Origin: Cliona cf. orientalis
Taxonomy: Eukaryota > Porifera > Demospongiae > Clionaida > Clionaidae
Length of the DNA: 64,000 nucleotides
NCBI GenBank assembly: GCA_963930775.1
Contig: OZ005707.1
Location: forward strand, 2,356,001-2,420,000
Direction: 5' to 3'
Shown: piece by piece, positions 15,829 to 54,500 of the stretch
Layout of the letters: the number at the start of each line of letters is the position of its first letter
Position numbering within the stretch: the first letter of the stretch is position 1
Notes under the pieces: generated by a model
What the model was told of the DNA's origin: nothing
Database searches by the model: none
Seen by the model: the letters and a program-made list of their open reading frames with translations, nothing else
Made by a program: the position numbers and the translations under genes

Positions 15829-18183
15829 TCATGAACTACTCTCATCAGAGGTGAAGAATTCCTCTAACTGTAGCTGAAGTGTATTGAAAGAGGGTCGATT
15901 GTCAGGCTCTTGGCTCCAACAGTCGAGCATTATGTCATACAGTTTAGGGGGACAGTTAGGCGGACAAGGCATACGGTAACTGCCCTCAGATACTGCCTCC
16001 AGAATGTCCCTAGTTACAAAACCTGCATACGGAGTGCGGCCATAAGTAATAATCTCATAGAGAACAATCCCAAATGACCAAACATCTGATTTCATAGAGT
16101 AACGGTTGTGTAAAGCGGCTTCAGGTGCAGTCCACTTGATTGGAAACCAATGCATGTAGTTGTCTTCAGATATCAAACTGCTAAACCCAAAGTCGGCTAC
16201 TTTACAGATCAGATATTCTCCCACTAAGATGTTCTTGGCTGCCAGATCCCGGTGAATATAGTCCTTCTCTTCAAGGTAGGCCATCCCACAGGCTACTTGC
16301 GCTGCCATGTCAATCAAATCAACATGCTTCAGGGATCTACCCTTCCCATACGGATTGTGACGGACAAACTCCAGCAAACTGCCATGCTTCATTAGCTCAG
16401 TTATCATGTACATCGGTTCTCCCTCTGAGCACACAGCATATAGCTGAAGCAGGTTGGGATGCTCAAACATTCTGATCACATCTGCTTCTGCTAAAAATTC
16501 GGGCCGATCTACGAGTCCAGGTTTAATTGTCTTGACAGCTACCGGCATCTTTTCATTCCACAAGCCCTCCCAAGTCTCCGCAAAAGATCCTGCACCAATC
16601 TTCTTCTGGAGTCTTATTTCTCTTTGATTGATATTCCATTCGAATCCTGTGTTTGCTTGCTTTGATAGACCAGGAGTTGGAGGTTTCTCAGCGTGAACAC
16701 AAGGAGACGACAGCACTGCACACAAGTTGCCTGAAGACTGCTGGAAATAAACAACCAACTCCGAGAGAGAGGCAAATGATGCTTGCGAGGTTATAGAGTA
16801 GCTGCCACTATCTAGCCACTCGTACTTAATGGGATAGTGAACGACTCCCTGATCGCCTCGAAGGGAGAGGACAAAATCACCTGGATTCACTTCACTTTCT
16901 CGGATAAGGAATGAGCCACGGCCATTGCACTCCTTCATTAGTAGTGTTTCTGCTTTAGCACATTTGAGGTTCCCATAATACCACCTGTTAATGCATATAT
17001 GACATTGTAGTAAATTAATGTATTTGTGTGATATAGCTCAGCCAAATTTAATAATGCTAGCTATAAAAAACTAGAGCTCTGTAGAGCACATACCCCGCGC
17101 GCCTATTCACGACCTTTACCTACATATTATGCAAAATAGTTGTGCGCATGAGCAGAAAACACATGGCCTGGGTGGGTATGGTCGATAGGCGTGGCCAGAA
17201 AATGCAGTGTTTACGATGCTCGTGGGCTTTGCCAAACGATTAGAGGCATAATGGAGCCAGTTGTTCAACGATTCCAACGGATTCCCTGTGCTTATGAGTC
17301 ACTCAGATGATTAGATCTTCAGATCTGGCGATTTTCGTGTTGACGACTGACAACTGACAGACAAAACTGATTGCTTTACCCTCGCTGCGCATGCATGCGT
17401 GGAGTAACAAACAATACACCTCATAAAATTAATGTGGAATATTGAGCAGAACCATGCATGGAGCAAACCTGAGGCTCTGACAAGATAATAATTATTAGTT
17501 CAATGGTGCTTCTTGACCCCATGCATGACCTTGTAAGGATACTACATGTAGGTGCATACACCAGGACGTCTACATGCACGTACATGTACATCATCATAAT
17601 TATTATGATCACAGAGATTGAAAAGCATAAGGAATGTGTATTATGATAATCACCACTGTACGAAATTAATGATCAAGAGATCAAGGTTGCCCCAATCAAG
17701 TATCGATTGCGATCACGGGTGTATGCAAAATTTTTAATGCATAATAATAGTATTCATGAGAGAGCAACTAATTATTTTGTGGTTGGGGTGTGGATATTAA
17801 ATAATCTGCCTATAATATAAATCTAAGTTTACTTACAGTTCTTTATCCAAGCAACTGTACTCAACAACGTAGCTGCTGGGGATGTAGCCACTTTCCCCGC
17901 GGTCTTTGGAGTGGGCCAACCACCAACCATCATCGTCAGCTTTGAGTACGTGCATCAGATCACCTCGTTTGAAGCCCAAGTCATCATCAGTGCGAGAGTC
18001 GAAGTCGAATTTGCTAATGTAGAGGGGACAGCTATCGATATCATAGTCATCCAGTTGCAGTGATGGATGCACTGGTCGCGCAGGCTCCTTCACGGCTTCA
18101 GGTTCGTGAACAGCATCATTTATAGGCCTACTACGGCCTGTGGAAGTGGAGGTCCTCTCAACACAAGAAGTACAACTGCCCAT
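15829..18183 (-). CDS. Src-type cytoplasmic tyrosine kinase without C-terminal regulatory tyrosine
   Basis: Two exons, 17837-18183 and 15829-16984, joined across an 852-bp intron (CT|GTAAGT, TAACAG|G), encode 500 residues. The MGSCTSC start fits N-myristoylation plus palmitoylation and so membrane anchoring. The SH3 domain spans about residues 52-108 (FDFDSRTDDDL, WW, GYIPSSYV). SH2 starts WYYGNLKC at 117 and has FLIRES. The kinase domain spans about 240-495: GAGSFA loop, Lys267 (VAVK), Glu282, HRDLAAKN at 360, DFG at 380, activation-loop Tyr392, FPIKWTAPEA. The enzyme should phosphorylate protein tyrosines at the membrane. Oddities: the chain stops at FFTSDESSS, so the inhibitory tail tyrosine of Src (Y527 in chicken) is absent; the activation segment is about four residues shorter than in Src; and the third loop glycine is Ala. 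A short tail resembles other sponge Src-related kinases only by my recollection. Confidence 0.93.
17071..17405 (-). mobile_element. Helentron-like element in Src-like intron
   Basis: A 335-bp copy: CTAGAGCTCTGTAGAGC at the left edge, a GCATGCGTGGAGT end at the right, and AA (TT on the element's strand) on both sides. It lies wholly inside the Src-like gene's intron on the same strand. Confidence 0.7.
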
Positions 18184-24400: not shown

Positions 24401-27400
24401 AATTAACCCTTGCCGCAAAGCGTAGGCAGAGGGGTTACTGCAGTTGTTTGGCTATTTTTGTCCGTCCGTCCGTCCGTCTGTTCATCGCAACCCTCCCTTG
24501 CTAAATGGTAAGGGTCGTCTGAGAGAAAGTACGCATTCAAGGGTATAAAGGAATAGTGGTCATGTTAAGTCCTGCCCAGTGGTGTAGTAGTGCATATGCA
24601 GCTGTTGCCTGTCTGCATTTATATGGCTCTTCAGTACCTCAGCTACATGACTGATTACAATTCTGTGCCTTGCTGGTCGGTTGTCAATGCAGTGACAGTG
24701 TGAACAGGCAGTGCATAAGGCAGTTTAGGTAGTCACGGAAGCTTTCAGTTTGTATAGTGACATAGCCAGGTGCCTCCCCCTACTCCTAGATCATGCACTA
24801 ACTCTAACCATAAACATGTTCAGGTGCAGGGTATGTACCATATTATTTCTTCTAAAAATTCGGCATGAAAATTAATATTGCTTTAGCTTCGCCGAATTTT
24901 AGAGGTTATTATTCATCATTCTGTCTGCGTGCGCATTCCATTCCCGTTTATAGCATATACGCATGACAACCTTTGCCGAAAAATTAGAGACTATATTATT
25001 CAATCATTTGGTAAAGGGTGCCGAATAATTAGAAGGGCTGAATTGTTAGAAGAAATACGGTAGTATTCCTGATACTGAACAAGCATACACAGTGAGCCAT
25101 GCTATACACACGCATGAGTCATGCATGCATGTAGCGGTGAGGGTTCTGCACTCAAGTGCATTAATTTAGAGTGGTTGCTTACAGCTCATGGTTCACAGAT
25201 TTCCACTTGGAATCGCATTATTTTCTGTCGAGAAAGAGCCGAGTCACCAATTATCATGGCAGGCAAATAACGTTGCATATTATTATATTTCCTGAATGAA
25301 ACCATTACAATACACACCTGTAGAAGCATACAAGAAATGCTCACTTTGGACACGTTCTAGAATGTTCTGTGCATTGCAGCTGAGATTAATTATTAGCACA
25401 AAGACCTACTGATTAGACCATTACTATGGAATTCCAAAGCGGACAAAATTAGATGATACACAAAATAATTGTCAAACAGACTTACACATAAAACAATTGT
25501 CAAACTTGTCTAGAACAATTGTCAAGCTCGTCCAAAATAATTGTCAAACTGCTACACACATAATATTGTGCACACTTTGCCTAAAACATTTGTCAGTCCT
25601 TGTACAAAACTACTGTCAAAGACACACATTTGCAATGGTCAAAACCACACAAGTTTGTCATGCGCAAATGTCGTTATGCTCAACCCACGCACCAATTAAG
25701 GTTGGAATCGGATATGGAATCCACAATACGCAATTATGCTGCTGGTGTGATCCAAATAAAGTGCACCCTGCAGAGAGCGAGACTCAGCCGAGCTGTCGCA
25801 CGAAGTGAGGCTAAAATGACGTGCTATTGAGATGGACGTGGAGTATGAATGTCTCTCTTCTTAACAGGTAGCTGTAATGTCAGAGTTCGGCGCAAAATCA
25901 GTCACGGAGCCAGTGTACGGTGGCTTTGCACGATTGTGAGACTAGTGATGCGTGTTGGTGTATCTCGATATCCAGGTAGTTTTGCCAAGCAGCTTGATCC
26001 CCGCCTAATGTCTGCAAAGGACTATACATATATATCTTCGTGCATAAATTGAATTTGGGGGAGTCTGGATTACCGTATTTCTTCTAAAAATTCGGCCCTT
26101 CTAATTATTCGGCACCCTTTACCGAATGATTGAATATAGTCTCTAATTTTTCGGCAAAGGTCGTCATGCGTATATGCTATAAACGGGAATGGAATGTGCA
26201 CGCAGACGGAATGATGAATATTAACTTCTATAAATTCGGCGAAGCTAAAGCAATATTATTATTTTCATGCCGAATTTTTAGAAGAAATACGGTAATATTT
26301 AATATAAGCAAGCTACACTATAGTCTAGCGAAGCCACGCTGACTGATTTTGCGCCAAACTCTGACATTACGGCTACCTGTTAAGAAGAGAGGCACTCACA
26401 CTCCACGTCCATCCCAATAGCACGTAATTATAGCCTCGCTTCTTCGTGTGACAGCTTGACTGAGACTGAGTCTCGCTCTCCGTGCAGGGTGCGCTTTATT
26501 TAGATCACACCAGCAGCGCGTAATGACGTAATTACGTATCGTGGATTCCATATCCGATTCCAACCTTAATTGGTGCGTGGGTTGAGCATAACGATTTGTA
26601 CGTTTGCGCATGACAAACTTGTGTGGTTTTGACCATTGCAAATGTGTGTCTTTGACAATAGTTTTGTATAAGGACTGACAAATGTTTTAGGCAAAGTGTG
26701 CACAATATTATGTGTGTAGCAGTTTGACAATTATTTTGGACGAGCTTGACAATTGTTCTAGACAAGTTTGACAATTGTTTTATGTGTAAGTCTGTTTGAC
26801 ATTTATTTTGTGTATCATCCAGTTTTGTCCGCTTTGGAATTCCATACATTACACTTGTTCTAGAAGTTTGTCTCTGTGTACACACAATCAGAAGTGCATA
26901 CCCACATGTAGATCTCCAAGGGATAAATGGTATTCATGTAGCCCACATATGGAACCATTAAGTGTATTCATCAGTGGATGGTGAGCTTCCATAGTATCAT
27001 TCATGCATAAGAAATGCAAACAATTCAACTGTAGAGGCAAGTAGGGCTGCAAAAATCCAATGGAAGAGAGGAAAAGTAGCTTCAAATCTGTGCAGCTTTT
27101 CAAAAACCAGACTCTGGGAATTGGATCCTATGGAGCTGTTTGTAAAGCAAAATGTGATGACCTTCTCTGTGCTGCCAAAATCATTCACCCAACACTCTTT
27201 TACCCAATCACACAGCTTCAAGTTGTACCTACGAAGGAGCACAGACTGCCAATTAAGAGGTTTGAACAAGAATGTGAATTCTTGAGTACTATACGACATC
27301 CAAACATTGTCCAGTACCTGTGTATGCACCAAGATCCCGACACTGGTCTTCCTGTGTTGCTGATGGAGCTGATGGATGAAAATTTGACCCTTTTTTTGGA

Positions 27401-30400
27401 CAACTACCCACAGCCAATTGCCTATCACACTCAAGCCAACCTTTGCCACGACATTGCACTAGCATTATCGTTTCTCCACTCCAATGGAATCGTTCATAGA
27501 GATCTCTCCAGCAATAATGTGTTGCTATTCAGTAACATCAGAGCCAAGGTGACGGATTTTGGAATGGCAAAGCTGAGTGACTTAAATTCTCGCAGTACCT
27601 TCACCATGTGTCCAGGCACGGATGTCTACATGCCTCCAGAAGCAGTCCATGAGGAGCCATTATACACGGAGAAGATTGACTGCTTCTCATTTGGTGTCAT
27701 CATTATCCAAATGTTAACGCGACAATTTCCTGAACCTGGAAATCGAAGAGCTCCAGCAAATCATCCAGGGTTACCAAACACTGCTGAGGTGCCAGTAGCA
27801 GAAGTTGTTCGCAGACAAAATCACATCAGTCAAGTTGAGCCCAACCATCCTCTCCTGCCAATTGCTCTCGATTGCCTGAAAGACAAGGATACTGAGCGTC
27901 CCTCAGCTCCACAGCTCTGTGAAAGAATGGCTAGTTTGAAAGGGAGACCAGAGTACAGTGAAAGCGTAACAGCTATGCAACAGGAGAAGCAGATACTAAG
28001 ACAACAATTGCAACACTTGCAGCAGAGTTTATTGAAGGAGAGAGAGGATAAAGACAGAGAGCTAGGGCAAATGGCGCAACAGTTGCAACAACTACAGCTA
28101 ACTTCAACAAAAGAGAGAGAGGAAAACAAGAAACTTCAGCAATCTGTGGCTCTTCAAGGGGAAGAGATAAAATGCATCACAAGAATGAGGGATGAAAGAG
28201 AAAAGCAGCTAAATCAAGAGTTGGAAAGTAGCCTACAGGAAAGAGCTGAACTGGATAAACAATTCCATTACCTTGAAGAGAGGCTGCTGATGTGTGGTGA
28301 GCTACCACAGAAGCAACAAGATGAGGAAATAGCTGATAGATTGGTTTGGAGACAAGCAGGGAGGGCACCATTTTCTGACAGAAGGTGGTGTGATGCCAGT
28401 CTCGATGGCAATAGGCTTTATTTTTTGGATGGTGACCGTCATCTTTGGATGTATGACATCCGTGAACAGAGTTGGACGCAACTTCCTGACTGTCTATATG
28501 GTTGCTCCAGTCTTGCAGTCCTCCATGAGCTACCCACAACTGTTGGTGGAGACCTTACCAATAAGCTCATGAGCCTCTCTACCGAAGGAAAATGGATAGA
28601 AAAATTCCATGCGATGCCTACAAAACGATGTTTTGTGACTACTGTGTCCACTGGAACAGCTTTGATTGTAGCAGGGGGTAGTGGACAGAATTCTAGGGAT
28701 CTAACAACAGTCGAAGTGCTGAACATTGAGAATAACGTGTGGTCTACTGCCCTAGATTTACCGGAACCGTTGCAATATCACTCAGCAACTATCGCTGGAG
28801 ATGAGCTCTACATGCTGGGGGGAGAAGTCGATATTACCCCTACTAATTCCGTATACACATGTTCAGTGAGTGCTCTTCTTCAGACTTGTACGCAAAGATC
28901 CTTAGTAGGAAGTCTTCGACGTGCTCTGTCACTGTCAAGTGATAGTGGTGTGTGGAATAAGCTTGCCGATCTTCCTGTCACTGGGTCCACTTGTGTAAGC
29001 CTATGTGGACAGCTCCTCGCGATCGGTGGGATGGATTTCAATTTAGAACCCAGTACAGCTGTTTACGCATACGATACATCAACCGACTCCTGGGATATCA
29101 AAAGTCATATGACGACGACAAGAAGATACTGCTTTGCAGCTGTCCTCCCTGATAACCAACTGATGATAGTTGGAGGTTGGATTGACAAGAATCAGACCCG
29201 TTCTGACTCTATCGAGTTTGGTGATTTAGTGTAGTGTGTGACAAATATGCAATTAGCTGACATAGCTCCTTATTATGATGTGTATACTGTCATACCCTAT
29301 GAATAAGAGTATTTGTATTATGTATTGTAGTTATATACTCAATATTATTATTGTAGTTGATGATTCACTCTTGCCGCAAAGCGTAGGCGGAGGGTTACTG
29401 CAATCATTTGTGTTCTCTCAAGATAATGATAATTATAGATAGAAAGTTTACAATGTCATGATCATTATGTACTTGTCATTGTTACCATGATAGTGGAGGT
29501 AACAATGCTACCTTTAGTAACATTGATTTACTAAAATTAATGATAGTGAGCTGCATTCCATTCCACATCAATTTACATGATAGCTACCGGCAAACAATGT
29601 GATCATCGATTAGCCTCGAAACCATGCATGGGAGTTGCTTGGGGACGAGGGTAATCATTGATTCCTCCATTGTGCCAGGAATTTTTCTATATTGGGTGAG
29701 GGATTGGGGTGAAGTAGCAAGGCTGAAGCCACCCCCCTTCTGCTTATAGCATCTATAATTCAGGTTATTTTGAATTAATCGTATGCAGCATCCCTATATG
29801 GAGCAATACAAATCTTCTCAAGTCCACTGCTGGTAAGTCTTGGCGATAATAACATTATAGTTTGTCACCATTGCCTCGAATTCAAATGCCATTGCGTACC
29901 GTTGCCTTATTGCCTTTTCTTGTAGGGAAAACTTAGTGATATTCATGGAAGAAAGAAAGTTCTTATTCTCTCCTATGTTGGGCCATTCCTGGGCTATATG
30001 GTGATGGGGCTATCATACTCACTTGTGCTGCTGACAGTCTCAAGAATTGTACATGGTGGGTGTAATTTGGCCATAATATTATATTCATGCAAGGTGGGAA
30101 GTCACTGCATGACTGAGTAAAACCGTCTGATTATATTTCAAAAATTATAAGCACCCTTTGATGTTAATTACAGCACTTCTCCTAAAATACTTTCTTAGAT
30201 TACCGACTTATCTATCACATTCTGCTCATCCCTTCCTGAATACTATAATAATATATCCAATATTGAAAGTTTGTGTCTTTAAGTAATAATATGATAAATA
30301 ATTTAAATGTATTTTTGGACTTGTGGCTACAATCGTTTGGGCATGGATTTTGTGCTTTATTAAGTGGTGATTGTCATTGTAAACAATTAAGTAAGCATAG

Positions 30401-31404
30401 GTATAGCTAGTATGTTCATGTCCCTCTTGCTTCGTTGCTATCGTGCAGGTTTGTTGAAGCATGGACTTTCAATCAGCAAAGCATACCTCGCTGACATTGC
30501 CAGTAGTCATGAGAGACAGTCTGTTCTTGGAATGTTCAATGCCTGCAGTAGTTTTGGCTTCATATTTGGACCATTGATTAGTGGATATTTAGCCGACAGA
30601 GACCCCACTCTTCAGCTCAGTGTGTTAACTGGAGCTGGAATATTTGGAATGAATTTTGTATTGGTGGCTGTTCTATTGCCATCCATGCCTTTGCCTGTTT
30701 TAAACAATGACCAGACATCCAATCCTTCGTCATCCCCCGACCAAGCCAATCAGATCGGTGATAGAACTACACTTGAACAAGTTTTGCATTCCTTAAACGT
30801 CTTTAGAAGAATACATGTCCACTGGTGGCAGTTGGTGGATGTTATCATTATTCAATTCCTACTCACATTTTCCAGTATCATTTTCAAATTTAGTTTTGTT
30901 GTTTTCATGGACGAACAATTTCATGTCAGTGGCACAACCCTCGGTCAAATATTATCATTCAATGGACTAGCATCCGCTCTAGGCTCTGCAACATCAGGAA
31001 GGATTTCCAAGCTCTACTCATCCAACTCCAAACAAGTAGCACACTTTACATTGCTGCTGGCTCTCTCACTTACTTGTCTGACTTTTGCTCCAAATATTGT
31101 TTGCATTGTTCTGCTCCTTATTCCCCTCTCTCTGTCAACTGCAAATCTGAGGACCTGTTTGTTGAACCTGATGCTTCAGAGAGGAAGGGCAGAGGAAAAG
31201 GGTGCCATCGTTGGTCTGGCAAACTCGATAAGTTCCATCAGTCGCATGTTGGCTCCGAGCATTGTTGGAGTAAGTCAAGAGTACAGTGTTAGACTGCCTG
31301 GGTATCTCAGTGCAGTGCTAGCTCTTGCAGCTTCTGGTGTTGCACTCGTCTACTGTTGGGGTCAGGATACCACTGATAAAACATCTGATTCTGATACTTG
31401 CTAA
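18452..31404 (+). CDS. MFSD9-like major facilitator transporter, five exons
   Basis: Exons 18452-18655, 19300-19387, 29789-29832, 29926-30055 and 30449-31404 join in frame (phases 0, 1, 0, 1) to give 473 residues, close to the 474 I recall for vertebrate MFSD9. Splice sites are GT-AG, though the first donor (GTAAAA) is weak. Diagnostic stretches cross the exon joins: IYLIGFV|DLFGVSM, then IFSSPLL|GKLSDIHGRKK (the MFS motif A between TM2 and TM3), then RIVHG|GLLKHGLSISKA, matching my recollection of MFSD9. Expected topology is 12 spans; a loop of about 50 residues (NDQTSNPSSSPDQ) separates the halves. Substrate unknown. Intron 2 is 10.4 kb and contains a complete kinase-Kelch gene on the same strand. 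Confidence 0.9.
19548..20410. repeat. Diverged copy of a CCCAGTAGC repeat
   Basis: Starts with CCCAGTAGCTGCATAATGG and an AAGGTCATCAATATAG motif, and ends with an AATTACCTCATCGG.TGGCCG block that recurs inverted at about 22890-22980. Boundaries are approximate. It lies within MFSD9-like intron 2. Confidence 0.4.
20459..20965. mobile_element. CCCCAGTAGC interspersed element
   Basis: About 500 bp, with ends CCCCAGTAGCTGCATAG and TTGCTACTGGGG forming short inverted repeats. The interior shares long stretches (AAGTTTCGATGCTTCA, TATATATAGC, AGGCTAGCTTTATTTAT) with an inverted copy at 23586-24132 and a further copy at 63345-63880. Non-coding. Confidence 0.6.
21403..22076 (-). mobile_element. Helentron-like element
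   Basis: A 674-bp member: left edge CTAGAGCTCTGTAGAGCACA, right edge GCACATGCGCGCGGGGT, flanked by AA on each side. It closely follows the 58213-58822 copy in its interior (CACTCTCTCTG, TATTATTCTTGGC, GGCGATTTTTGTGCT). It lies in MFSD9-like intron 2. Confidence 0.7.
22077..23202. other. Intron 2 sequence without supported gene
   Basis: Within MFSD9-like intron 2. A minus-strand open frame near 22373-22660 has a hydrophobic stretch but no start context, family or splice evidence. About 22886-23000 carries the inverted partner of the 20330-20410 repeat block. Confidence 0.45.
23203..23400. mobile_element. Diverged copy of the GGCCACTCC MITE family
   Basis: In reverse orientation it shares CCGCCCGCATGTA.TTCCATC, AGCACCGGCACAAT and CCGTCCGCATCAGTTTTT with the element at 57789-58016. 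The ends are too eroded to place exactly. Confidence 0.5.
23586..24132. mobile_element. CCCCAGTAGC interspersed element, inverted copy
   Basis: Reverse-oriented relative of 20459-20965. It ends with GCAGCTACTGGGG and begins AGTAGCAATTTAC. It retains several near-copies of GGTAATTATGA/GAAACCTATGG units. Confidence 0.6.
24416..24500. repeat. TTGCCGCAAAGCGTAGG repeat with GTCC microsatellite
   Basis: CTTGCCGCAAAGCGTAGGC followed by GGGTTACTGCA recurs at 29369-29403, beside the kinase-Kelch gene's 3' end. Here it is followed by (GTCC)n. It looks like the edge of another repeat family; the full extent is not resolved. Confidence 0.45.
24836..25061. mobile_element. MITE with TTTCTTCTAAAAATTCGG ends
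   Basis: About 225 bp with inverted ends (ATTTCTTCTAAAAATTCGG and TTAGAAGAAATACGG). A second copy in the opposite orientation lies at 26071-26294. TA flanks. No coding sequence. Confidence 0.7.
25425..26846. mobile_element. Long-arm inverted-repeat element
   Basis: Arms 25425-25902 and about 26336-26846 are inverted copies, opening TATGGAATTCCAAAGCGGAC. Each arm has several degenerate ACAATTGTCAAACT units. The spacer contains the MITE at 26071-26294. The right end lies only about 210 bp upstream of the kinase-Kelch start codon, so it could supply that gene's 5' region. Confidence 0.75.
26071..26294. mobile_element. MITE with TTTCTTCTAAAAATTCGG ends, nested
   Basis: Inverted ends TACCGTATTTCTTCTAAAAA and its complement. 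The inner sequence matches the 24836-25061 copy in reverse (CATTCC.TTCCCGTTTATAGC). It sits in the spacer of the 25425-26846 inverted repeat. Confidence 0.75.
27060..29234 (+). CDS. Protein kinase / coiled-coil / Kelch-repeat protein
   Basis: A single exon encodes 724 residues. Residues 14-295 form a kinase domain of TKL-like type: loop GIGSYG at 20-25, Lys40 (AAK), Glu71 or Glu73, HRDLSSNN at 146, DFG at 166, GTDVYMPPEA, then CFSFGV and ERPSAPQL. All catalytic residues are present, so activity, probably on Ser/Thr, is expected. Residues 300-420 are Gln/Glu/Leu-rich coiled coil (LRQQLQHLQQSLLKERED). Residues about 430-720 are Kelch repeats of a beta-propeller (LIVAGGSG, LYMLGGE, LLAIGGMD, LMIVGGW, each followed by a W or Y strand). 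No signal peptide or TM, so cytoplasmic. It sits wholly within intron 2 of the MFSD9-like gene, same strand. A broken paralogue (36338-38579) and a fragment (34793-35417) lie nearby. Confidence 0.9.
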   Translation: MEERKSSFKSVQLFKNQTLGIGSYGAVCKAKCDDLLCAAKIIHPTLFYPITQLQVVPTKEHRLPIKRFEQECEFLSTIRHPNIVQYLCMHQDPDTGLPVLLMELMDENLTLFLDNYPQPIAYHTQANLCHDIALALSFLHSNGIVHRDLSSNNVLLFSNIRAKVTDFGMAKLSDLNSRSTFTMCPGTDVYMPPEAVHEEPLYTEKIDCFSFGVIIIQMLTRQFPEPGNRRAPANHPGLPNTAEVPVAEVVRRQNHISQVEPNHPLLPIALDCLKDKDTERPSAPQLCERMASLKGRPEYSESVTAMQQEKQILRQQLQHLQQSLLKEREDKDRELGQMAQQLQQLQLTSTKEREENKKLQQSVALQGEEIKCITRMRDEREKQLNQELESSLQERAELDKQFHYLEERLLMCGELPQKQQDEEIADRLVWRQAGRAPFSDRRWCDASLDGNRLYFLDGDRHLWMYDIREQSWTQLPDCLYGCSSLAVLHELPTTVGGDLTNKLMSLSTEGKWIEKFHAMPTKRCFVTTVSTGTALIVAGGSGQNSRDLTTVEVLNIENNVWSTALDLPEPLQYHSATIAGDELYMLGGEVDITPTNSVYTCSVSALLQTCTQRSLVGSLRRALSLSSDSGVWNKLADLPVTGSTCVSLCGQLLAIGGMDFNLEPSTAVYAYDTSTDSWDIKSHMTTTRRYCFAAVLPDNQLMIVGGWIDKNQTRSDSIEFGDLV

Positions 31405-33200: not shown

Positions 33201-33363
33201 CAATCAGTTGAGATTATGCATAACACACACAAGCAGCAATCAAATTAATTTTAAGACTGAAATGCACCATAATATTATTATTTCAGTAGTTGCATTACAT
33301 TTGGACATAATATTATTATGCTACAACAAATACTGTCCCCTTTCATGACTACTGCAAATAATA

Positions 33364-34690
33364 TTGGGATGCAAGGTTGTAACTCTTGAAAAAAAGCCTG
33401 TTGTCCAGTGTGCCTTCAACCATGCTGGTACACTATGTGGTGGTTGCAAGGAAAACTACAGCCTGGCTATAGGATCACTGAAGTGCATCCAATATTCAAA
33501 CAACAACATGGCTCTTCTCATTTTATTTGCAAGTACAGGGATCATGCTTGTGTCTTTTATTCTTGTGCTAAATCTGACAGCCAAACAAGGGCTAATAAAT
33601 GGTGTATAGCTAGTGCTTCATGCTAACATTTATGTACCCACAAAGTTGGTTCCCCTATCAACAGAATTTATATTCACGTATATACCATTATCAGTTCTAG
33701 TTTGTAAATTTTGACAGTGTGATGTCAGTATCATGGCTGCCTGTACAAATTAAAAAAGCGTTATTAAATTCTAAGCCTTCAGCCATTTGCAGTCACAAAT
33801 GTGCGCTATTCTACCAGCATCTGTGGATGTATCCTACAGAGTTACATAATAATTATATTGCTTCTTTATTGTATGTACGCCTTAATGAAACTCCACATAA
33901 TGGCACAAAATTGAGCGAAAACGAAACCAAAAGAGCAGTAGACCGATTGGGTACTAGTTTTGTACTACCACTCAACACAATTAGATTTCCAAGTAATAAA
34001 CTTTCAAGAATCATGACTGACTTCCGTTTATAGACATGGCAGACCTAGAGTATATGTATAGAGGAGCAAAAGTAGTAAAACTATTGTGAGTTTGACAATG
34101 TTTAGATCAGGAATGATACTGAAAGTAAGAGAATAGATCAGAATAAGTAGCTATAGGCCTTGAATAAGCAGCAAGACTCCAAACCAATAGCTAGTGCATG
34201 GTGTTTGTCTTTTAGCAAAATTAGTGTCATAGAATGGAGTGAACTAATAAAGCAAGTGCCTCTACTATAACACGAATGAGCTTCATATATTATTATAAGA
34301 GAGAAGAAAGAGTGTGGCCAGGAGAGGAACTGCTTCGTCACCAAGTAGTTTGGTGATGAGAGAAGAGTAGCATGAGGCAGTTTTGTTTTTTTTTTTGCTT
34401 ATAATACTTTATGCAATAATATGCAATGGACACACAATAGCTGCTAAAGCTAATACAGGTGTGTACCCTATAGTTAAACTACGTGTATATAACAAAATGA
34501 GAGCACTTAAAATTAATTAGCTAGTTGCTAACAGTAATTTATGATACTACCAGCAATAGACCAAATGTAGAGAGGGAAGAGAAACTGTAGTCACGTACGT
34601 TTTCCAAAGGGAATTAGATCGTGAAAAAAAGCAGCTTTCGATTCCAAAAGTAATCTAAATTGAACCATGCAACAAATACCTGAATAATAT
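33364..34690 (-). pseudogene. Rearranged fragments of the beta-helix/multi-TM gene
   Basis: 33716-34690 (minus) matches 39205-40205 of the intact 39265-42756 gene: the membrane-span region and tail, with a deletion of about 200 bp near 34250 and an insertion of about 150 bp after 34380. 33364-33620 matches a neighbouring part (ending CGGCKENYSLAIG and the first span LILFASTGIMLV) but in plus orientation, so one piece has been inverted. Frames are interrupted. It is a dead partial copy. Confidence 0.8.
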
Positions 34691-34792
34691 TGTATACTCT
34701 AATACAATAATATTATACACAATGTCATGTATAGTAACTGTTTATAGAGCTGTAGACGCATGCATACTGCCATAGATGGTAATATAGTACGT

Positions 34793-36337: not shown

Positions 36338-38579
36338 ATGGCTGGAAAACAGCAGCAGCAGGGAGACAAGAAGATTGGATTCAAAACTATCATTCTTCTC
36401 AAAGACCAAACCCTCGGTATTGGATCATATGGATCAGTCTGCAAGGCAAAGTGTGATGACCTCCTCTGTGCTGCTAAAATCATCCACTCAACTCTATTCA
36501 GTCCAACTGTACTGCATCAAATAGCCCCTCACAGAGAGCACAGGCTACCAATCAGGAGATTTCAACTAGAGTGTGAGTTCTTGAGCACCATACGGCACCC
36601 TAACATTGTCCAATACCTGGGCACCCACCAAGATCCCGAAACACACCTCCCAGTTCTACTAATGGAGCTGATGGACGACAGCCTGACGCACTTTCTGGAA
36701 AGCTCCCCACAGCTGATCCCCTACCACATCCAAGTCAACATCTGCCATGATGTAAGTCAAGCACTATCGTTTCTCCACTCCAATGGCATCGTCCACAGAG
36801 ATCTCTCCAGCAACAATGTGTTGCTTATTGGCAACAATAGAGCAAAATTGACCGACTTTGGAATGGCGAGGCTGGGGAATCTAAATCCTCAAGCAACTCG
36901 CATCACCAACACCATGTGTCCCGGCACTGATGTCTACATGCCTCCAGAAGCTGTTCAAGACTAACCAGTGTATACGGAGAAGATTGACTGCTTCTCATTT
37001 GGTGTCATCGCTGTCCAGACACTGACACAAGAGTTCCCCAAACCAGGAGATCGAATGATGACCGTCCATGACCCTCGCTACCCTAGATCACTAAAGATGA
37101 ACATACCAGAAATAGAACGACGACAAAACCACATCAGTGGAGTTGATCCAAACCATCCTCTCCTACCAATTGCCCTCGACTGTCTCAAAGATGCCGATGG
37201 TGAACGCCCATCAGCTCAGCAGCTCTGTGAAAGACTAGCTATAGCAGCTCTGAAAGAAACAGCTAAATACAAGAATGCTAGTGAAGAAGCGAAGGATAAC
37301 AGAGGTAAAGAGAGAGAATATGAGCAACTTCAATATATCATACATCAAAAAGATGCAACTATAGCAGAAAAAGAACAACAATTGCGACAATGTAGAGAGG
37401 AGCTGACTCAGCAGAATCAAGAGAGTCAGCGAAAAAGTCAACAAATTTGGCAGCTAGAGAGAGAGATACAGAGAGAAAGAGAGGGAGCTTGGACGAGTGA
37501 ACCAGCAGCTGGAAGAGAGTGAGTGACTGGTAGCTAATTTTGGCAAACGAAATACAGAACTTGAAGAAGAATTTAGAGTGGTGAGAAGTCAGGTACAGGG
37601 GAAAGATGGTGGGGCCGAGGCTGGAGCAGTGAGCAAAACTGACTTCAAACTGAGGTGGAGAGAGGGAGAGAAGGCTCCATGTGAAATGGGTAGATACTAT
37701 TGTGATGCTGTTGTACACAATGGCACAGTGTATTGCAAATATGATTTAAATTACAAAGTATATGCCTATGACATATCAAGTTCCAGCTGGTCTCTCACTT
37801 CAGACACCTCAAGTGAAGGATTTGCTCTGGCAGTCGTTGATGATCTACTGACTACAGTTGGAGGATATGATGCTAAGAACACTAACAAGCTGTTGAGTCT
37901 GACTGATGAAGGCAGTGGAAAGAGGTGGACTGAGAAACTCCCACCAATGCCAACTAAACGTTTCAATGTGTCTACACTGTGCACTGGAACTACTCTGATC
38001 GTAGCAGGGGGACGTGGTGGTTATAAGGATGATGTGCTGAAAATAGTTGAAGTGCTGAACACTGAGACTCGAGAGTGGCACACTGCTGCTGATCTACCTC
38101 AACCATTGACATATCCATCACTAACACTCTGTGGTAATCTGGTCTATCTGCTGGGGGGAGCCAACAAAGACGGTGATACTGTAAATTCAGTGTACTCTTG
38201 TTCATTAACATCACTTCTTTCCTCCACTGGCTCCATATCTCTAGGAGGGCATCTTGTAAAACTAACACGATCCAGTGAAGGCAGCCCATGGAACAGAGTT
38301 GCTGACCTCCCTGTAAACCTCTCCACTGCTGTGAGTCTTCATGGTCAACTGCTAGCAATTGGCGGGATGGATTCAGAAGATGAACCCAGCACTACTGTTC
38401 ATATGTACCAGCCAGTCACTAACTCCTGGGAGATCCATTAGTTACATGACAATACCTAGGAGTCAGTGTTTATCAGCTGTCCTCCCTGACAACCAGCTGA
38501 TGGTATAGTGGGCGGATGGACCACTGGTGGCAAAAATAGTGATTCATTTGAATTTGGAGAAGTAGTTTATGCTTATTAA
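36338..38579 (+). pseudogene. Broken full-length kinase/coiled-coil/Kelch paralogue
   Basis: Same architecture as the 27060-29234 gene: kinase (GIGSYGSVCKAK, CAAKII, HRDLSSNN, DFGMARL), coiled coil rich in Glu/Gln/Lys, and Kelch repeats (LIVAGGRGG, LVYLLGGA, LLAIGGMD). It is interrupted by an in-frame TAA at 36962-36964 in the kinase C-lobe, a frame change in the coiled coil near 37480 with a stop at 37520-37522, and frame changes near 38440 and 38505 at the end of the propeller. Similarity persists to the final codons (EFGE). The lesions are few, so inactivation looks fairly recent. Separate expression of the Kelch part cannot be excluded. Confidence 0.85.
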
Positions 38580-38945: not shown

Positions 38946-39264
38946 ATCGTAACAGTTGTAGCTAGTCCTGGGCTTTGATTGATGGACCCATATATATAAC
39001 TATAATAATATTATTATAGCTCGCTGGCTGCCATTGCATGCATCTACAGCAGATATTCCATTTATTTTGCAAATCGATCCCATGGATCTTTGAATAGCTA
39101 TAGTATGACTCACCACGTAGGAGGAGTTTATAACTTGATTAGTTTTGAGAAAACAAACGGTTACAATGAATGTGTTTATACAAGGTTATAGTTTATAGAT
39201 TTTGACAGTGTGATGTCAGTATCATAGCTGCCTGTACAAAAAAAAATTAATACTAAGCCTTCAG

Positions 39265-42200
39265 CTATTTGCAGTCACAAATGTGCCCTATTCTACCTGG
39301 TCCAGTGTCTGTGGATGTATCCTCCAGATTTACATAATACTTATTGCTTCTTCTTTTTTGTACATACGCCTTAACAAAACTCCACACAACAATGATACAA
39401 AATTGAACAAAAGCGAAACCAATAGATACAATAAGAGCAGTAGACCGATTGGGCACTAGTTTTGTGCTACCACTCAACACAATTAGATTTCCAAGTAATA
39501 AACTTTCAAAAATCATGACTGATTTCCGCTTATAGACACGGCAGACTAGAGTATAGAGGAGCAAAAATAGCAAAACTATTGTGAGTATGACAAGGTTTAG
39601 ATCAGGAATGATACTGAAAGTAAGAGAATAGATCAGAAGAAGTAGGCCTCGAATAAGTAGCAAGACTCCAAACCAATAATGGTGTTTGTCTTTTAGTGGA
39701 GCAAAATTAGCGTCATAGAATGGAGTGAATTTTGTGATCCATCGCAGACATTTTAAATGTGAAAATTTTCTCAGCCACTGTACTAAGAAGAGTGTGAGCG
39801 TGTATGGACACCAAAGTAGAACTAAAATTAGCAAAGCAGCTACAAATAAGTATATATGGGGAGGCTTACAATACAAATAGTTGCCATCAAGATACCAGAC
39901 AGCCTTGCTATGCCCTTCAGGAGAGGATTGGAGTACAGCAAAAGCAAGTGCCTCTACTATAACACGAATGAGCTTCATATAAGAGAGAAGAAAGAGTGTG
40001 GCCAGGAGAGGAACTGCTTGGTCACCAAGTAGTTTAGTGATGAGAGAAGAGTAGCGTGAGGCGGTTATGATACTACCAGCAATAGCCCAAATGTAGAGAG
40101 GGAAGAGAAACTGTAGCCACGTTTTCCACAGGGAATTAAAATCGTGAAAAAAGCAACTTTCGATTCCAAAGTCTAAATTGAGCCATGCAACAAATACCTG
40201 AACAACCGACAGTGGTACATGAATATTCTGTTGATAGGGGAACCAAGCTGGCTTGTAGGTCCACAAGATGTTAGCGTATAGCACTATGCCATTTATTAGC
40301 CCTTGTGTGACTGTCAGATTTAGAATGAGGATAAAGAGCACAAGCATGATCCCTGCACTTGCAAAGAAAACAAGAAGAGCCACGTTGTTGTTTGAACATT
40401 GGATACACTTCAATGATCCTATAGCCAGGCTGTAGTTTTCCTTGCAACCACCACATAGTGTACCAGCATGGTTGAAGGCACACTGGGCATCGGGTCTTTT
40501 TTCAAGAGTTACAACCTTGCGTCCCAATTTGCAGTAGTCAAGGGGACAGTATTTGTTGTAGTAAAGTGTTTTATCAATAGTTATACTCACCCACATGGAG
40601 CTGTTCCATGTGTGATAGCCTGTATTATTTATAAAGTTACAATTAAAGCCATACTCTGTTAGTAGTTGATCGCAAATGCATCCTGAAGGTTGTCCATCTG
40701 ACCTCGTTTGATGAAATCCTGGAGGACATGACAGGAGACTTACATTAATGAACAATGGTGTAGTCAAAAGATTTTCATCAATGCAGTTATGGTTATGCCA
40801 ATTATTGTTAATCGACTGATTCACATTTGTGATATTACCGTATTTCATGACGGCAAATTTTTGTGACTGCAGCGTCATTATTTCATATGTAGCAGAGGAG
40901 AATATTGTGTAATTAAGATCAAAGCATTCTGCACTGCCAATCCATTGATCATACTGAAACGGCAGGAGAAAGCCGTCTGAATCAGATGTTGGATGAGGTA
41001 GGAAACCAGCATGTACTGTGCCTTTTGTTGTTCCAAAATCATAGCCAACCACAGCCACTGATAATAGAAACGTTTCGCCTGAGTACACTTGGATATTGCC
41101 CACAAATATCTTAGACAGCCGAGCACACTGGGGTAAATTAAAGCCATTTATTGAGTCACAAACACAAATTCTCTTTGGTTCAGAGGATACAACTGAAGGG
41201 ATGGTGCTTTGGTCCGGCTCAAACGTGAATATATTGTGGTAGAGATAGCAGAAAGGTTTGGTTGGATGATTGCTGAAATACTCATAACTGCACCTGGAAT
41301 CTAAAGTGCTACTGCTCCCATAGATGTGCTGACCAATACCATTCTTAGCAGTGTTACCAACAAATTTGATGGTGCCATTTTCATACCCTGTGTATCCAAC
41401 TCCTGGGTAGTAAAAACATGGAGCATTAGGGATAACTACAGCATACACACCACCTCCAACATCAAGCGCTGTGTTATTTTTTAGCAAAACCATTCCACTA
41501 GAAATCTTCACAATAGAGGAATAGAGATAAATGCCTCCTCCCTGCAATGCTACGTTGTTTGCAAGCACTATGTGAGCATCGGTACTAGTACAAAGTCTTG
41601 CTGAAATCAAGAAAAGGGCTCCACCCAGTGTCGTAGCACTGTTGTAGGTGAAACTGACTGAGCTATTATCTGTAACGTTTAAATTAGATGAACGCAAATA
41701 GGCAGCACCGCATTCCATGGCACTGTTTTTTGTGAAATAAACCTTTGCCTCTTTGACATAAACACCACTGTAAACCATGCTTATTGCTCCAGCACGATAC
41801 GACCAATTCTTTTGAAATCTCACAACTGCATATCTTCCTATAATGTAGATAGATGACCTCGACATGTAAATTGCTCCTCCCTCCCGACTAGCCTCATTGC
41901 CGATAAACCACAAATTACCAAAACAGTAGATTTTACAAGCTTCAATAAACATGGATCCACCGTAAACTGAAGCACTATTATTGATGAAGGATACATTTCC
42001 ACCAGCGGGTATATATACAACGGATTTGGATAGATTTAAAACGCCACCACTTACAGTTGATCCTGATGGTTTATCACCTATGAATTTCACTGTTTCTGAC
42101 AAAATAATTGTGCTATTTGTCGCCTCTATAGTGGAATACAACCTTGAGCTACCTCCTTTAATGAAACAGTCTTGTAGAGAAATAAATCCTTCCATGGATA

Positions 42201-42756
42201 GTAAAGAAACATTATAGAGCGTGCAATTGACTAGCGATCCTGATGCGTTAGTAATGTTCAAGGCCAAATCAAAAGATGCAGTCATTATCGAATTCTTAAT
42301 CGTTAACTGACAATCTTTGCCACTAAAGGCAATTGAGAGATAGTTAATGGTAATATTTTCAAATTCTATCGTATGAACATAATTAAAGGAATAAAAGTTC
42401 TTGGCTGCATGCATACTACCTGGAAGACTCTTTGGCATGTTGATGATAACCTTTGCCGATGAGGTACCAACAATGGACAGTGAAGACAGGTTGTGAACTG
42501 ACAAACTCTCAGTACAGTTGTGGACTCCACACATAAAGTAGAGTGTGATCTCGTTTTTGTCAGGTGAGAAGAATATGCCTCTGTTCTTAGCATAGTAGTC
42601 CATCTCATGGCATTGCTGACCAGCAGGACAGCTGTCATTTTTGGGGCACGACAGAGGCCCATAAATCTCTGTTGGTTTGACGTAATAAGTCTCACATCCT
42701 GAAAGCATAATCTGACTTCTAATTATGAACAGCAACAAAAGGAAAGCATTCATCAT
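39265..42756 (-). CDS. Beta-helix (PMP-repeat) ectodomain protein with multi-TM C terminus
   Basis: A single exon encodes 1163 residues. A signal peptide (MMNAFLLLLFIIRSQIMLS) leads a large ectodomain to about residue 800. Residues about 230-470 contain at least seven repeats of the form F-x-x-N-x-A-x-x-x-GGA-[IL]-[YF] (FINNSASVYGGSM, FIGNEASREGGAIY, LANNVALQGGGIY), the FxxN/GGA signature of chlamydial polymorphic membrane proteins and of right-handed beta-helices. A Cys-rich part follows (CPPGFHQ, CICDQ, CAFNHAGTLCGGCKENY). The last about 350 residues hold about eight hydrophobic spans (VALLVFFASAGIMLVLFILI first) and a short tail (YYVNLED). Many N-glycosylation sequons. It should be a surface protein with a membrane-embedded domain, possibly receptor-like; function unknown. 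A shattered paralogue is at 33364-34690. Confidence 0.85.
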   Translation of the reverse strand: MMNAFLLLLFIIRSQIMLSGCETYYVKPTEIYGPLSCPKNDSCPAGQQCHEMDYYAKNRGIFFSPDKNEITLYFMCGVHNCTESLSVHNLSSLSIVGTSSAKVIINMPKSLPGSMHAAKNFYSFNYVHTIEFENITINYLSIAFSGKDCQLTIKNSIMTASFDLALNITNASGSLVNCTLYNVSLLSMEGFISLQDCFIKGGSSRLYSTIEATNSTIILSETVKFIGDKPSGSTVSGGVLNLSKSVVYIPAGGNVSFINNSASVYGGSMFIEACKIYCFGNLWFIGNEASREGGAIYMSRSSIYIIGRYAVVRFQKNWSYRAGAISMVYSGVYVKEAKVYFTKNSAMECGAAYLRSSNLNVTDNSSVSFTYNSATTLGGALFLISARLCTSTDAHIVLANNVALQGGGIYLYSSIVKISSGMVLLKNNTALDVGGGVYAVVIPNAPCFYYPGVGYTGYENGTIKFVGNTAKNGIGQHIYGSSSTLDSRCSYEYFSNHPTKPFCYLYHNIFTFEPDQSTIPSVVSSEPKRICVCDSINGFNLPQCARLSKIFVGNIQVYSGETFLLSVAVVGYDFGTTKGTVHAGFLPHPTSDSDGFLLPFQYDQWIGSAECFDLNYTIFSSATYEIMTLQSQKFAVMKYGNITNVNQSINNNWHNHNCIDENLLTTPLFINVSLLSCPPGFHQTRSDGQPSGCICDQLLTEYGFNCNFINNTGYHTWNSSMWVSITIDKTLYYNKYCPLDYCKLGRKVVTLEKRPDAQCAFNHAGTLCGGCKENYSLAIGSLKCIQCSNNNVALLVFFASAGIMLVLFILILNLTVTQGLINGIVLYANILWTYKPAWFPYQQNIHVPLSVVQVFVAWLNLDFGIESCFFHDFNSLWKTWLQFLFPLYIWAIAGSIITASRYSSLITKLLGDQAVPLLATLFLLSYMKLIRVIVEALAFAVLQSSPEGHSKAVWYLDGNYLYCKPPHIYLFVAALLILVLLWCPYTLTLFLVQWLRKFSHLKCLRWITKFTPFYDANFAPLKDKHHYWFGVLLLIRGLLLLIYSLTFSIIPDLNLVILTIVLLFLLLYTLVCRVYKRKSVMIFESLLLGNLIVLSGSTKLVPNRSTALIVSIGFAFVQFCIIVVWSFVKAYVQKRRSNKYYVNLEDTSTDTGPGRIGHICDCK

Positions 42757-51599: not shown

Positions 51600-54500
51600 C
51601 GGAGCTCTACCTATCTTGAGGAGACACAAGTCTTTGAGACACTGAAGCCAACGCCTGGCGAGAGGCTTGTACATACAGCTGATAAGCTGAGCTGTCCCAC
51701 TGCCCCAACATTTTGATCATCGAATCTTCAATGCCGATCTCTGCTGCTGTTGTAGCCGCACCAATCCTAAAGCTGTGGCCGGCATACGTAGAACTATCGA
51801 GTCCTAACGCCGCCAATGCCGCTCTAACCTCGGCAATGAAGATGTCCTTCGTGAGAAAACGTCCATCCTTCAGCCGAAACAGCGGGCCTGGTACATTGCC
51901 CCTGATGGCCAGATACGCTAATAGTGCCGACACCGGGCACAAATCTTCTCCTGTCCTTCCCATATAAATGTCGACCCCCTTCCTGTATTGGTCCGTATTG
52001 GAGCACCTCAAATGGATTTTCACCATAGTGGGATAATTTATGGGGATTGTCGACAGCGACATCGTCCACCATCACGCCACGGTCATGTTGCTGCCCCTTC
52101 GTCGTGGCTGACATAATTTCTCCCATTCTAAAGAAGCCAAAGAAGGCTGTACAGCAGGCTGCCCATAACATGACTATGTCAAACTCAGGAGCACGTGTAC
52201 TCCACAGTGCCCTAATCTGTCGTAGAATCGACGGAATGATTGGAAGACGTTGTCGACCCGAGAGTTCAGATGACTTCATCCGCCGAATCCCTCTCTCTAC
52301 CAGTGATAACTTAGGCATCGGTATTGACCTCGGCTCTGGCAGATCTCTCGAGATGTGCAGGTACCTGATAACCGCTAAATATGTCCTGATAGTACCAGAA
52401 GCTAACCTAGATTAGCTAAATAAGTTATAAACAAACACAAAACTGACTGAGACACTGGTAAGGGGTTAGATAACTTATACATAGCACAAAAATTAACAAA
52501 TTTTTTTATTCCAGCTTGATGTGTTCTCCTTGTAGATTCGGCTAGACCGTGTTCAAAGTACCTCTGAACATCTTCCTCCAATGAGGTGATGTCCAATCTG
52601 GTTTGGAATTCACTAGCATATCCAGTAGTGGCTGTGGAGGAACAGATTGACTAGCACCTTTGACAGCCTCCAGAAAAGCAGGCAAATTATCTCTTGATAA
52701 ATCATCCGCTAACGTATTTTGGACTCCCGCAATATGGACTGATATCATCCTAAACGAAAACGACGCTTCAAAGAAAGTAAGGCAACACAACAGGTGCATC
52801 AAGTCACTGTCCTTGCTGGTACGACAGTTGAGTACCGCCACTATAGTGCTGTTATCACACTGACAACATACCACCTGACCACTCCAACTCCGGCCCCACA
52901 TTGCCGCTGCTATCACTATTGGGACCAACTCCTTCGTCGCAATGTTGGAGTCCACAGGACATGAGGTACTACTCCAAGCCAACTGAAACCACTTTGTACC
53001 CCAGTAAGCCCCACATCCCCATGAACCAGACGCATCAGAGGTGAGGGTGACCTCTGGCTTCTGCTCACCTAGGCTCGACAACATGGAGACGCCATTCCAC
53101 TCCACAAGAAACTCATGCCACCAGGCCAGGTCAGATCGAGCACCATGATTCAAGCTCAAATGATGGTTATTCCTCCGAACCGTGGCACTGAGGTCAAACA
53201 ACTGCCGTACGAACACTCTACCTGGCCAGACCACAGTAGCCGCATGCTGAAGTTGACCAGCAATGGAGAGCAACTCTTTCTTCGTACATCTCCTCTTCTG
53301 TAACCATTCCGCAATCTGCTCTCGTAGTCTGTCCAACCTATACTGCGGGAGTCTGAGCTCGCCTTGGAGAGTATCAATGAGGATACCCAAGAACACCAAG
53401 CAAGTCGTTGGGCCTTCTACCTTTTCCTCGGCTAGAGGGACCCCCAAATGACCACAAATGTCCTTCAGTAGCTGAAGGTTAAACTGGCACTCCTCTGATT
53501 CAGCAGCTCCACATGTAATGTAATCATCTAAGTAATGCCATAAACGCTTGACACCATGATCTTTCACGATCCACTCCAAGGCATCTGCTAGGGCATTGAA
53601 TATCTTTGGCGCCGATCTCAAGCCGAATGGCAACGCTCTATCCACATAAATATGATCATTCCATCACATGCCCAACAAGAATCGATCTTGAGGATGTACA
53701 GGAACAATCCTATACGCACTTTTGATGTCTAGCTTCGCCATAAGTGCTCCCGGTCCCAGCTGCAACAGCTGCCGCACAACATCATCAACCCGGGTATACT
53801 GCAGAGTGCACAAGTCGGAACTGATACCATCGTTGACACTCTTACCCTCTGGATGGGACAAATCCACTATTAGCCTCCATTTTCCCGGCTGGTGAGGCTT
53901 CGGGATAACACCAAATTGGTTTATCTGCACTCCTGGCATGGCATCTGGTGCAAATGGGCCCAAAACTGCACCTCGACTCATCTCAGCCTCCAGATAGTCA
54001 CTGACTACAGGGGCGTTGTCCACCACTGAATGCATATTCTTCTTTGCTGAAGACAGACACTCTCTCCCCGACTCACGGTTGAAACCGATTCTGAAACCAT
54101 CTCTGATCCCCTCCATTAGATACTCCACAAATCTCTTGTCTGGGTGCTTCATCAACATTGCTTCCCATTGCTCCGGATTGAGTGGTATACAGACACCCAG
54201 CAACCTCTCCTGTACTGCTCTCTGGCCTGGCCTTGGTCGGCACCGGTCCAAACCACACAGATCATCCGTATATTGATAAACATTGATCTGTACAAGTAAT
54301 TATAGTTAGTAATGGGCAGAGAAAACTCCTCCCGGTCAGTGTCACCCTGCATTGCACAAGGTGGACAACTAACTTATCATGCATGCACATCTGAAACAGT
54401 TGAAATTAATAATAGGGAGCGAACCCCCTGGTCACACCGTAAGAACAGTGGACATTGAGAACGTAATCAACCCAAACAGATTCTCCACATGATTATAATA

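Follow-up and report, generated by a model that had tools for sequence, protein, structure and literature searches.

Single-exon genes joining Pmp-type repeats to a multi-span membrane domain form a large family in the sponge Cliona cf. orientalis

The described systems closest to the gene considered here are the chlamydial Pmp proteins (PF02415, TIGR01376), which carry FxxN/GGA repeats, and the Pmp-like proteins of trichomonads. In the accessible part of a structural report on Pmp, the repeat motifs are buried and the loops project from one face; the motif residues are conserved and the turns variable (PMC10715098). For PF02415, four methods agree on a beta-solenoid, and the same source states in its available sections that AlphaFold2 over-predicts beta-solenoids for near-perfect repeats (PMC11795689). 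The trichomonad proteins, as far as the available text of the respective study describes them, form a eukaryotic family of surface proteins with Pmp repeats, a single membrane span and C-terminal endocytic motifs; Pmp-domain proteins with such motifs raised adhesion experimentally, and the proteins tested were located mainly in the ER and Golgi and not at the surface (PMC6701047). A comparable expansion in a sponge is that of the SRCR receptors, presumed immune receptors with unrelated domains, which are greatly expanded according to the excerpt available (PMC10855680). No publication describing the present family by title or abstract was found among the matches listed from the open-access literature. 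Domains similar to those described below may also occur in protists and cnidarians.

The window, i.e. the whole stretch of DNA that was analysed, comprises 64,000 nucleotides of the sponge genome. Positions 39265-42756 of its minus strand, on which all parts of the gene lie, form a single intact open frame of 1163 aa, which was aligned with 28 other full-length members of the family. The first about 20 residues are hydrophobic, and a signal peptide is probable, from hydropathy, at aa 1-24 (42685-42756). It is followed by an N-terminal ectodomain delimited by family conservation (aa 25-240, 42037-42684), the FxxN/GGA rung region (aa 241-500, 41257-42036), a linker with conserved Cys residues in the family alignment (aa 501-730, 40567-41256), and a Cys-rich membrane-proximal module with seven Cys, recognised by their positions and by invariant columns (aa 731-788, 40393-40566). 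The frame ends with a multi-span membrane domain (aa 789-1131, 39364-40392) and a putative cytoplasmic tail (aa 1132-1163, 39268-39363). A possible polyadenylation signal, AATAAA, is located 198 bases beyond the stop (39061-39066). The initial annotation had proposed Pmp-type repeats, a Cys-rich region and a hydrophobic C-terminal domain in one frame and one exon, headed by a signal peptide, and the analysis bears it out in these points, the signal peptide being probable; the refuting case that it named, in which the C-terminal spans would be an unrelated domain read in a wrong frame, was dispelled, as they share the frame of the repeats in 29 of 30 related loci and match no annotated family.

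Like the chlamydial proteins, the window protein scored above both curated cut-offs for the repeats, with 33.9 bits for PF02415 (E 2.3e-8; cut-off 20.6) and 39.9 bits for the NCBIfam model TIGR01376 (E 2.2e-10; cut-off 15). No other Pfam or NCBIfam family matched the whole protein up to E 1. Five paired FxxN...GGA-like units were counted in aa 25-520, whereas 5000 shuffled sequences contained 0.15 on average and 3 at most. Rungs start at F257, F284, F314, F341, F369 and F465, and two degenerate rungs were seen by eye near aa 396 and 424; FxxN motifs from aa 551 onward did not appear rung-like by eye. The rung period, followed in the member L004, is 28 residues at first and later 31-33. In a clade of 15 members, pN was 0-0.03 where the rungs have F, N, A, G and G/A, 0.29-0.32 at both turn positions that separate FxxN from GGA, and 0.21-0.22 at three positions after GGA. 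Nearly fixed motif residues together with variable turns fit a solenoid with a buried core and correspond to the pattern of chlamydial Pmp. An AlphaFold2 model of the whole window protein from single-sequence input was of very low confidence (mean pLDDT 36). In one further member, L039 (133-3810, plus strand), 27 FxxN motifs and rungs almost identical to one another were seen by eye, so that the rung number may change by unequal crossing-over.

The likeness to chlamydial Pmp ends behind the ectodomain. Unlike these autotransporters, the family consists of eukaryotic single-exon genes with an alpha-helical multi-span domain in place of the barrel; a Pfam search of the entire window protein to E 1 did not detect the autotransporter beta-barrel PF03797, and identity as a Pmp autotransporter was therefore ruled out. 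The trichomonad type, which shares the eukaryotic setting, the Pmp repeats and the C-terminal endocytic motifs, has a single span in the portion of the report available (PMC6701047), whereas the sponge family has about nine inferred spans and a preceding Cys-rich module; seven hydropathy peaks and nine inferred spans rule out the single-span type. The Cys-rich module itself gave sub-threshold matches to DUF7630 (PF24633) in nine of 14 members, the window gene not being among them, with 15.9-17.1 bits against a cut-off of 27 in the three whole proteins for which bits were shown.

The C-terminus of the window protein is helical and hydrophobic according to hydropathy and to an AlphaFold2 model of aa 785-1135 (single-sequence input, mean pLDDT 48, very low confidence). 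The initial annotation had counted about eight membrane spans; hydropathy gave seven peaks, and the distribution of charges suggests nine spans plus a short hydrophobic helix 2 that does not cross the membrane, with the N-terminus outside and the tail inside. In the 29 members, Lys and Arg cluster in three loops of the domain (2.8, 6.9 and 2.9 per sequence) and in the candidate cytoplasmic tail (5.6 per sequence), and one loop between the Lys/Arg-rich loops contains a sequon (0.83) and Cys. One feature speaks against this topology: with nine spans, the loop that follows span 1 would lie inside, yet it has an almost invariant N-L-T sequon (0.97 per member). The C-terminal domains of 14 members, searched against Pfam up to E 10, matched no family above its cut-off. 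By sequence, no solved structure similar to the single window protein was found, and a profile of the 14 domains obtained just two chance-level matches to solved structures (E 8.2 and 9.4). The ectodomain is filed here under the Pmp-type repeat, and the membrane domain is left without a family.

The tails carry candidate sorting signals. An acidic dileucine motif is present in 18 of the 29 tails and a YxxPhi motif in 14, the window protein possessing YVNL, and 28 tails have at least one of both. None of 2000 sets of shuffled tails reached 28 with either motif (mean 10.6), a significance inflated by the treatment of related sequences as independent; YxxPhi alone was within chance, the observed count being reached in 65 of the 2000 shuffles. 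The most divergent intact member, L040 (170-4684, plus strand), has by eye a tail of more than 100 aa, so that signalling may differ between subfamilies.

The genome of 216.8 Mb (149 contigs) was searched with three members, which yielded at least 40, 79 and 98 mutually non-overlapping loci. Each search scored its best candidates, the weakest of which was still below E 1e-90, and hence these lists are incomplete. The family comprises at least 217 non-overlapping loci on 19 contigs; among those listed, at least 144 have a frame open for 1000 aa or more and no stop in the matched stretch, 23 have stops in it, and 129 lie within 50 kb of another listed locus. The signature W-x-N-L-D-F-G, present in the window gene as W-L-N-L-D-F-G (40166-40185), occurs 234 times as DNA in the whole genome, 447 times if F or L is allowed and 360 times with two further residues, whereas each reversed control gave 0; the figure of 447 counts motif matches and not confirmed genes. 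All 30 loci chosen as the closest relatives of the window gene (L003-L032, the window gene included) contain the first of these patterns, and 29 of them have a full-length single-exon frame, the remaining one (L031) having a stop. Eight further loci were sampled from other clusters (L033-L037 and L039-L041). Two of these (L036, L040) are whole frames with the order of rungs, Cys-rich module and membrane domain, and two (L035, L037) show this order as far as the frame or the retrieved stretch extends; the others are broken (L033, L034), interrupted (L039) or cut off ahead of the membrane domain (L041). When 33 membrane domains were placed on a tree, that of the window gene stood alone on a rather long branch (0.76), and L037 and L040 made up the most distant group.

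In the alignment of 29 members, the Cys-rich module and the membrane domain are most conserved (0.80-0.86 per 60-residue block, aa 721-1020), and conservation is lowest (0.55-0.57) in the initial half of the rung region, in a portion of the linker and in the tail. Values of dN/dS were defined for 348 of 406 pairs, which are not independent of each other. Among the 45 closest pairs listed, the membrane domain showed ratios of 0.16-0.50, below 1 in every pair, and the rung region 0.29-0.94; the rungs had the higher ratio in 41 of the 45, the four exceptions being pairs inside the C2 cluster. Close paralogs are under purifying selection, and in these 41 pairs it acts more strongly on the membrane domain than on the repeats. 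Positive selection was not shown, as only isolated 25-codon windows exceeded 1 (1.05 and 1.08) in the 15-member clade. In a PHI-type test of two clades (15 and 6 members), none of 1000 permutations in either clade matched the observed compatibility of neighbouring sites, which indicates that sequence has been exchanged between copies. Of 14 close pairs, 11 remain homologous over 100 bases or more upstream of the frame, and 11 over 90 bases or more downstream of it, which fits segmental duplication. In the pairs L018-L032 and L004-L006, homology begins within the frame.

The initial annotation had suggested a large surface sensor or adhesion receptor. Its receptor-like layout, a Pmp-type ectodomain on a multi-span domain, is upheld by the HMM matches, the alignment, the selection pattern and the predicted topology; the sensor or adhesion role goes beyond these results and would be a matter of interpretation. 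The explanation preferred here, tentatively and somewhat short of an even chance, is that the gene encodes a recognition receptor at the cell surface and is one of a very large, germline-diversified family of single-exon genes for such multi-span, perhaps endocytic proteins. Such a protein would be exported through its signal peptide, its beta-helix would present variable turns as binding sites for ligands carried by microbes, by particles or by other cells, and a disulfide-rich stalk would hold the helix on the conserved domain of about nine membrane helices, which would serve for transduction or as an anchor. Dileucine or YxxPhi signals in the tail might then lead to endocytosis of the ligand-loaded receptor, and the germline repertoire may be varied by duplication, decay, changes in rung number and recombination between copies. 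This reading draws on the Pmp repeats, the at least 217 loci, the signature counts, the dN/dS ratios, the conservation of the rungs, the recombination, the loop charges and the sorting motifs, and the adhesion experiments on the trichomonad proteins lend support to a related idea. Against recognition counts that the linker between rungs and Cys-rich module varies as much as the rungs (ratios up to 1.04) and that ratios above 1 occur only in isolated windows; against a location at the surface counts the ER and Golgi location of the trichomonad proteins in the available part of that study (PMC6701047). A bolder version, possible and rather unlikely, would make the family the main germline-diversified recognition repertoire of the sponge, with hundreds of receptors that tell microbes, symbionts or non-self apart and whose beta-helix turns and rung numbers are reshuffled through recombination on a conserved nine-span module with a new fold. 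How sponges discriminate self, symbionts and pathogens is an old question with few candidate receptors, and several hundred recombining receptor-like genes would offer a concrete gene set for testing sponge recognition. An ectodomain of a bacterial-adhesin class on a membrane domain without a described family would also enlarge the inventory of animal receptors.

Among the other explanations, cell-cell adhesion or allorecognition survives best, and it is an improbable one that still deserves weight. Here, variable ectodomains would bind partners on neighbouring cells and mark the identity of the individual, which suits a large recombining family with a variable ectodomain and agrees with the adhesive behaviour of Pmp-type domains in Chlamydia and trichomonads in the accessible parts of the reports (PMC10715098, PMC6701047). 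The membrane domain would then mainly be an anchor, but it is more conserved than a mere anchor needs. A little less probable is a ligand- or force-gated ion channel, for example of a TRP-like type, whose membrane domain would form a pore opened by binding or shear. Such a channel would suit the conserved helices, about nine in number, whose spans contain charged residues in the charge analysis of the family, and the Cys-rich module directly preceding span 1. Similar layouts may occur in membrane proteins of protists. However, no Pfam channel family was matched by the C-terminal domains of 14 members up to E 10, nor was a relative found by sequence among PDB structures. G-protein-coupled chemosensory receptors, comparable to the single-exon olfactory receptor families, are quite unlikely: the single exon, the large copy number and the clustering of loci recall these families, but neither 7TM nor GAIN/GPS domains, adhesion-type GPCRs included, had a Pfam match, and the inferred spans number nine and not seven. 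That a mobile-element or virus gene or bacterial contamination was spread through the genome, as the very high copy number, the single exon, repeats best known from bacteria and the one close pair of 14 in which homology ends at the frame on both sides (L008-L011) might suggest, is scarcely credible, and contamination and a mobile-element gene were rejected, since the copies are distributed over 19 contigs of an animal assembly, the protein is kept by selection, homology extends outside the frame in most close pairs, and scans of viral contigs and prokaryote genomes, in which a short peptide pattern matched 69, 1, 89 and 44 stretches and whose short-pattern start can miss distant relatives, yielded no relative confirmed by tblastn.

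Returning to the receptor family preferred here, the window also contains remains of a second copy. A piece corresponding to aa 723-855 lies on the plus strand (33289-33675; tblastn, 64% identity to the window gene), and pieces of aa 850-1163 with broken frames lie on the minus strand (33786-34691; 42-88% identity per piece). The relic thus holds only pieces of aa 723-1163, broken and partly inverted, and aa 942-1009 were not found by tblastn; of the 29 members, the window gene is the nearest to it. It shows that the gene was once duplicated locally and that this copy then underwent decay and inversion. The initial annotation had taken a shattered copy at 33.4-34.7 kb as a sign that the family is multiplying here; the copy does exist, and it testifies to decay, with one dead relic at this place and the living expansion elsewhere in the genome.

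Other frames of the window comprise a protein kinase and Kelch-repeat gene in one frame (27060-29234, plus strand), a second kinase and Kelch set split across three open frames (36338-38441, plus strand), an SH2 and tyrosine kinase frame (15829-16938, minus strand), an MFS transporter frame (30412-31404, plus strand) and, where the G+C content is higher, a weak remnant of a reverse transcriptase (52542-53645, minus strand).

Elsewhere in the assembly, at about 3.2-3.7 Mb of contig C2, many signature matches are interleaved with a gene for an ATP synthase/V-ATPase subunit c, present in three copies of equal score, and repeated duplication of one block may account for this region. COX1 reads TGA as Trp at eight places, and the two contigs that carry it also contain a 78-codon frame for an ATP synthase subunit c; atp9 in the mitochondrial DNA is a trait of demosponges. 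On one COX1 contig, C111, subunit c was matched twice at a distance of 19.6 kb, and this contig is perhaps the mitochondrial genome assembled for more than one round.
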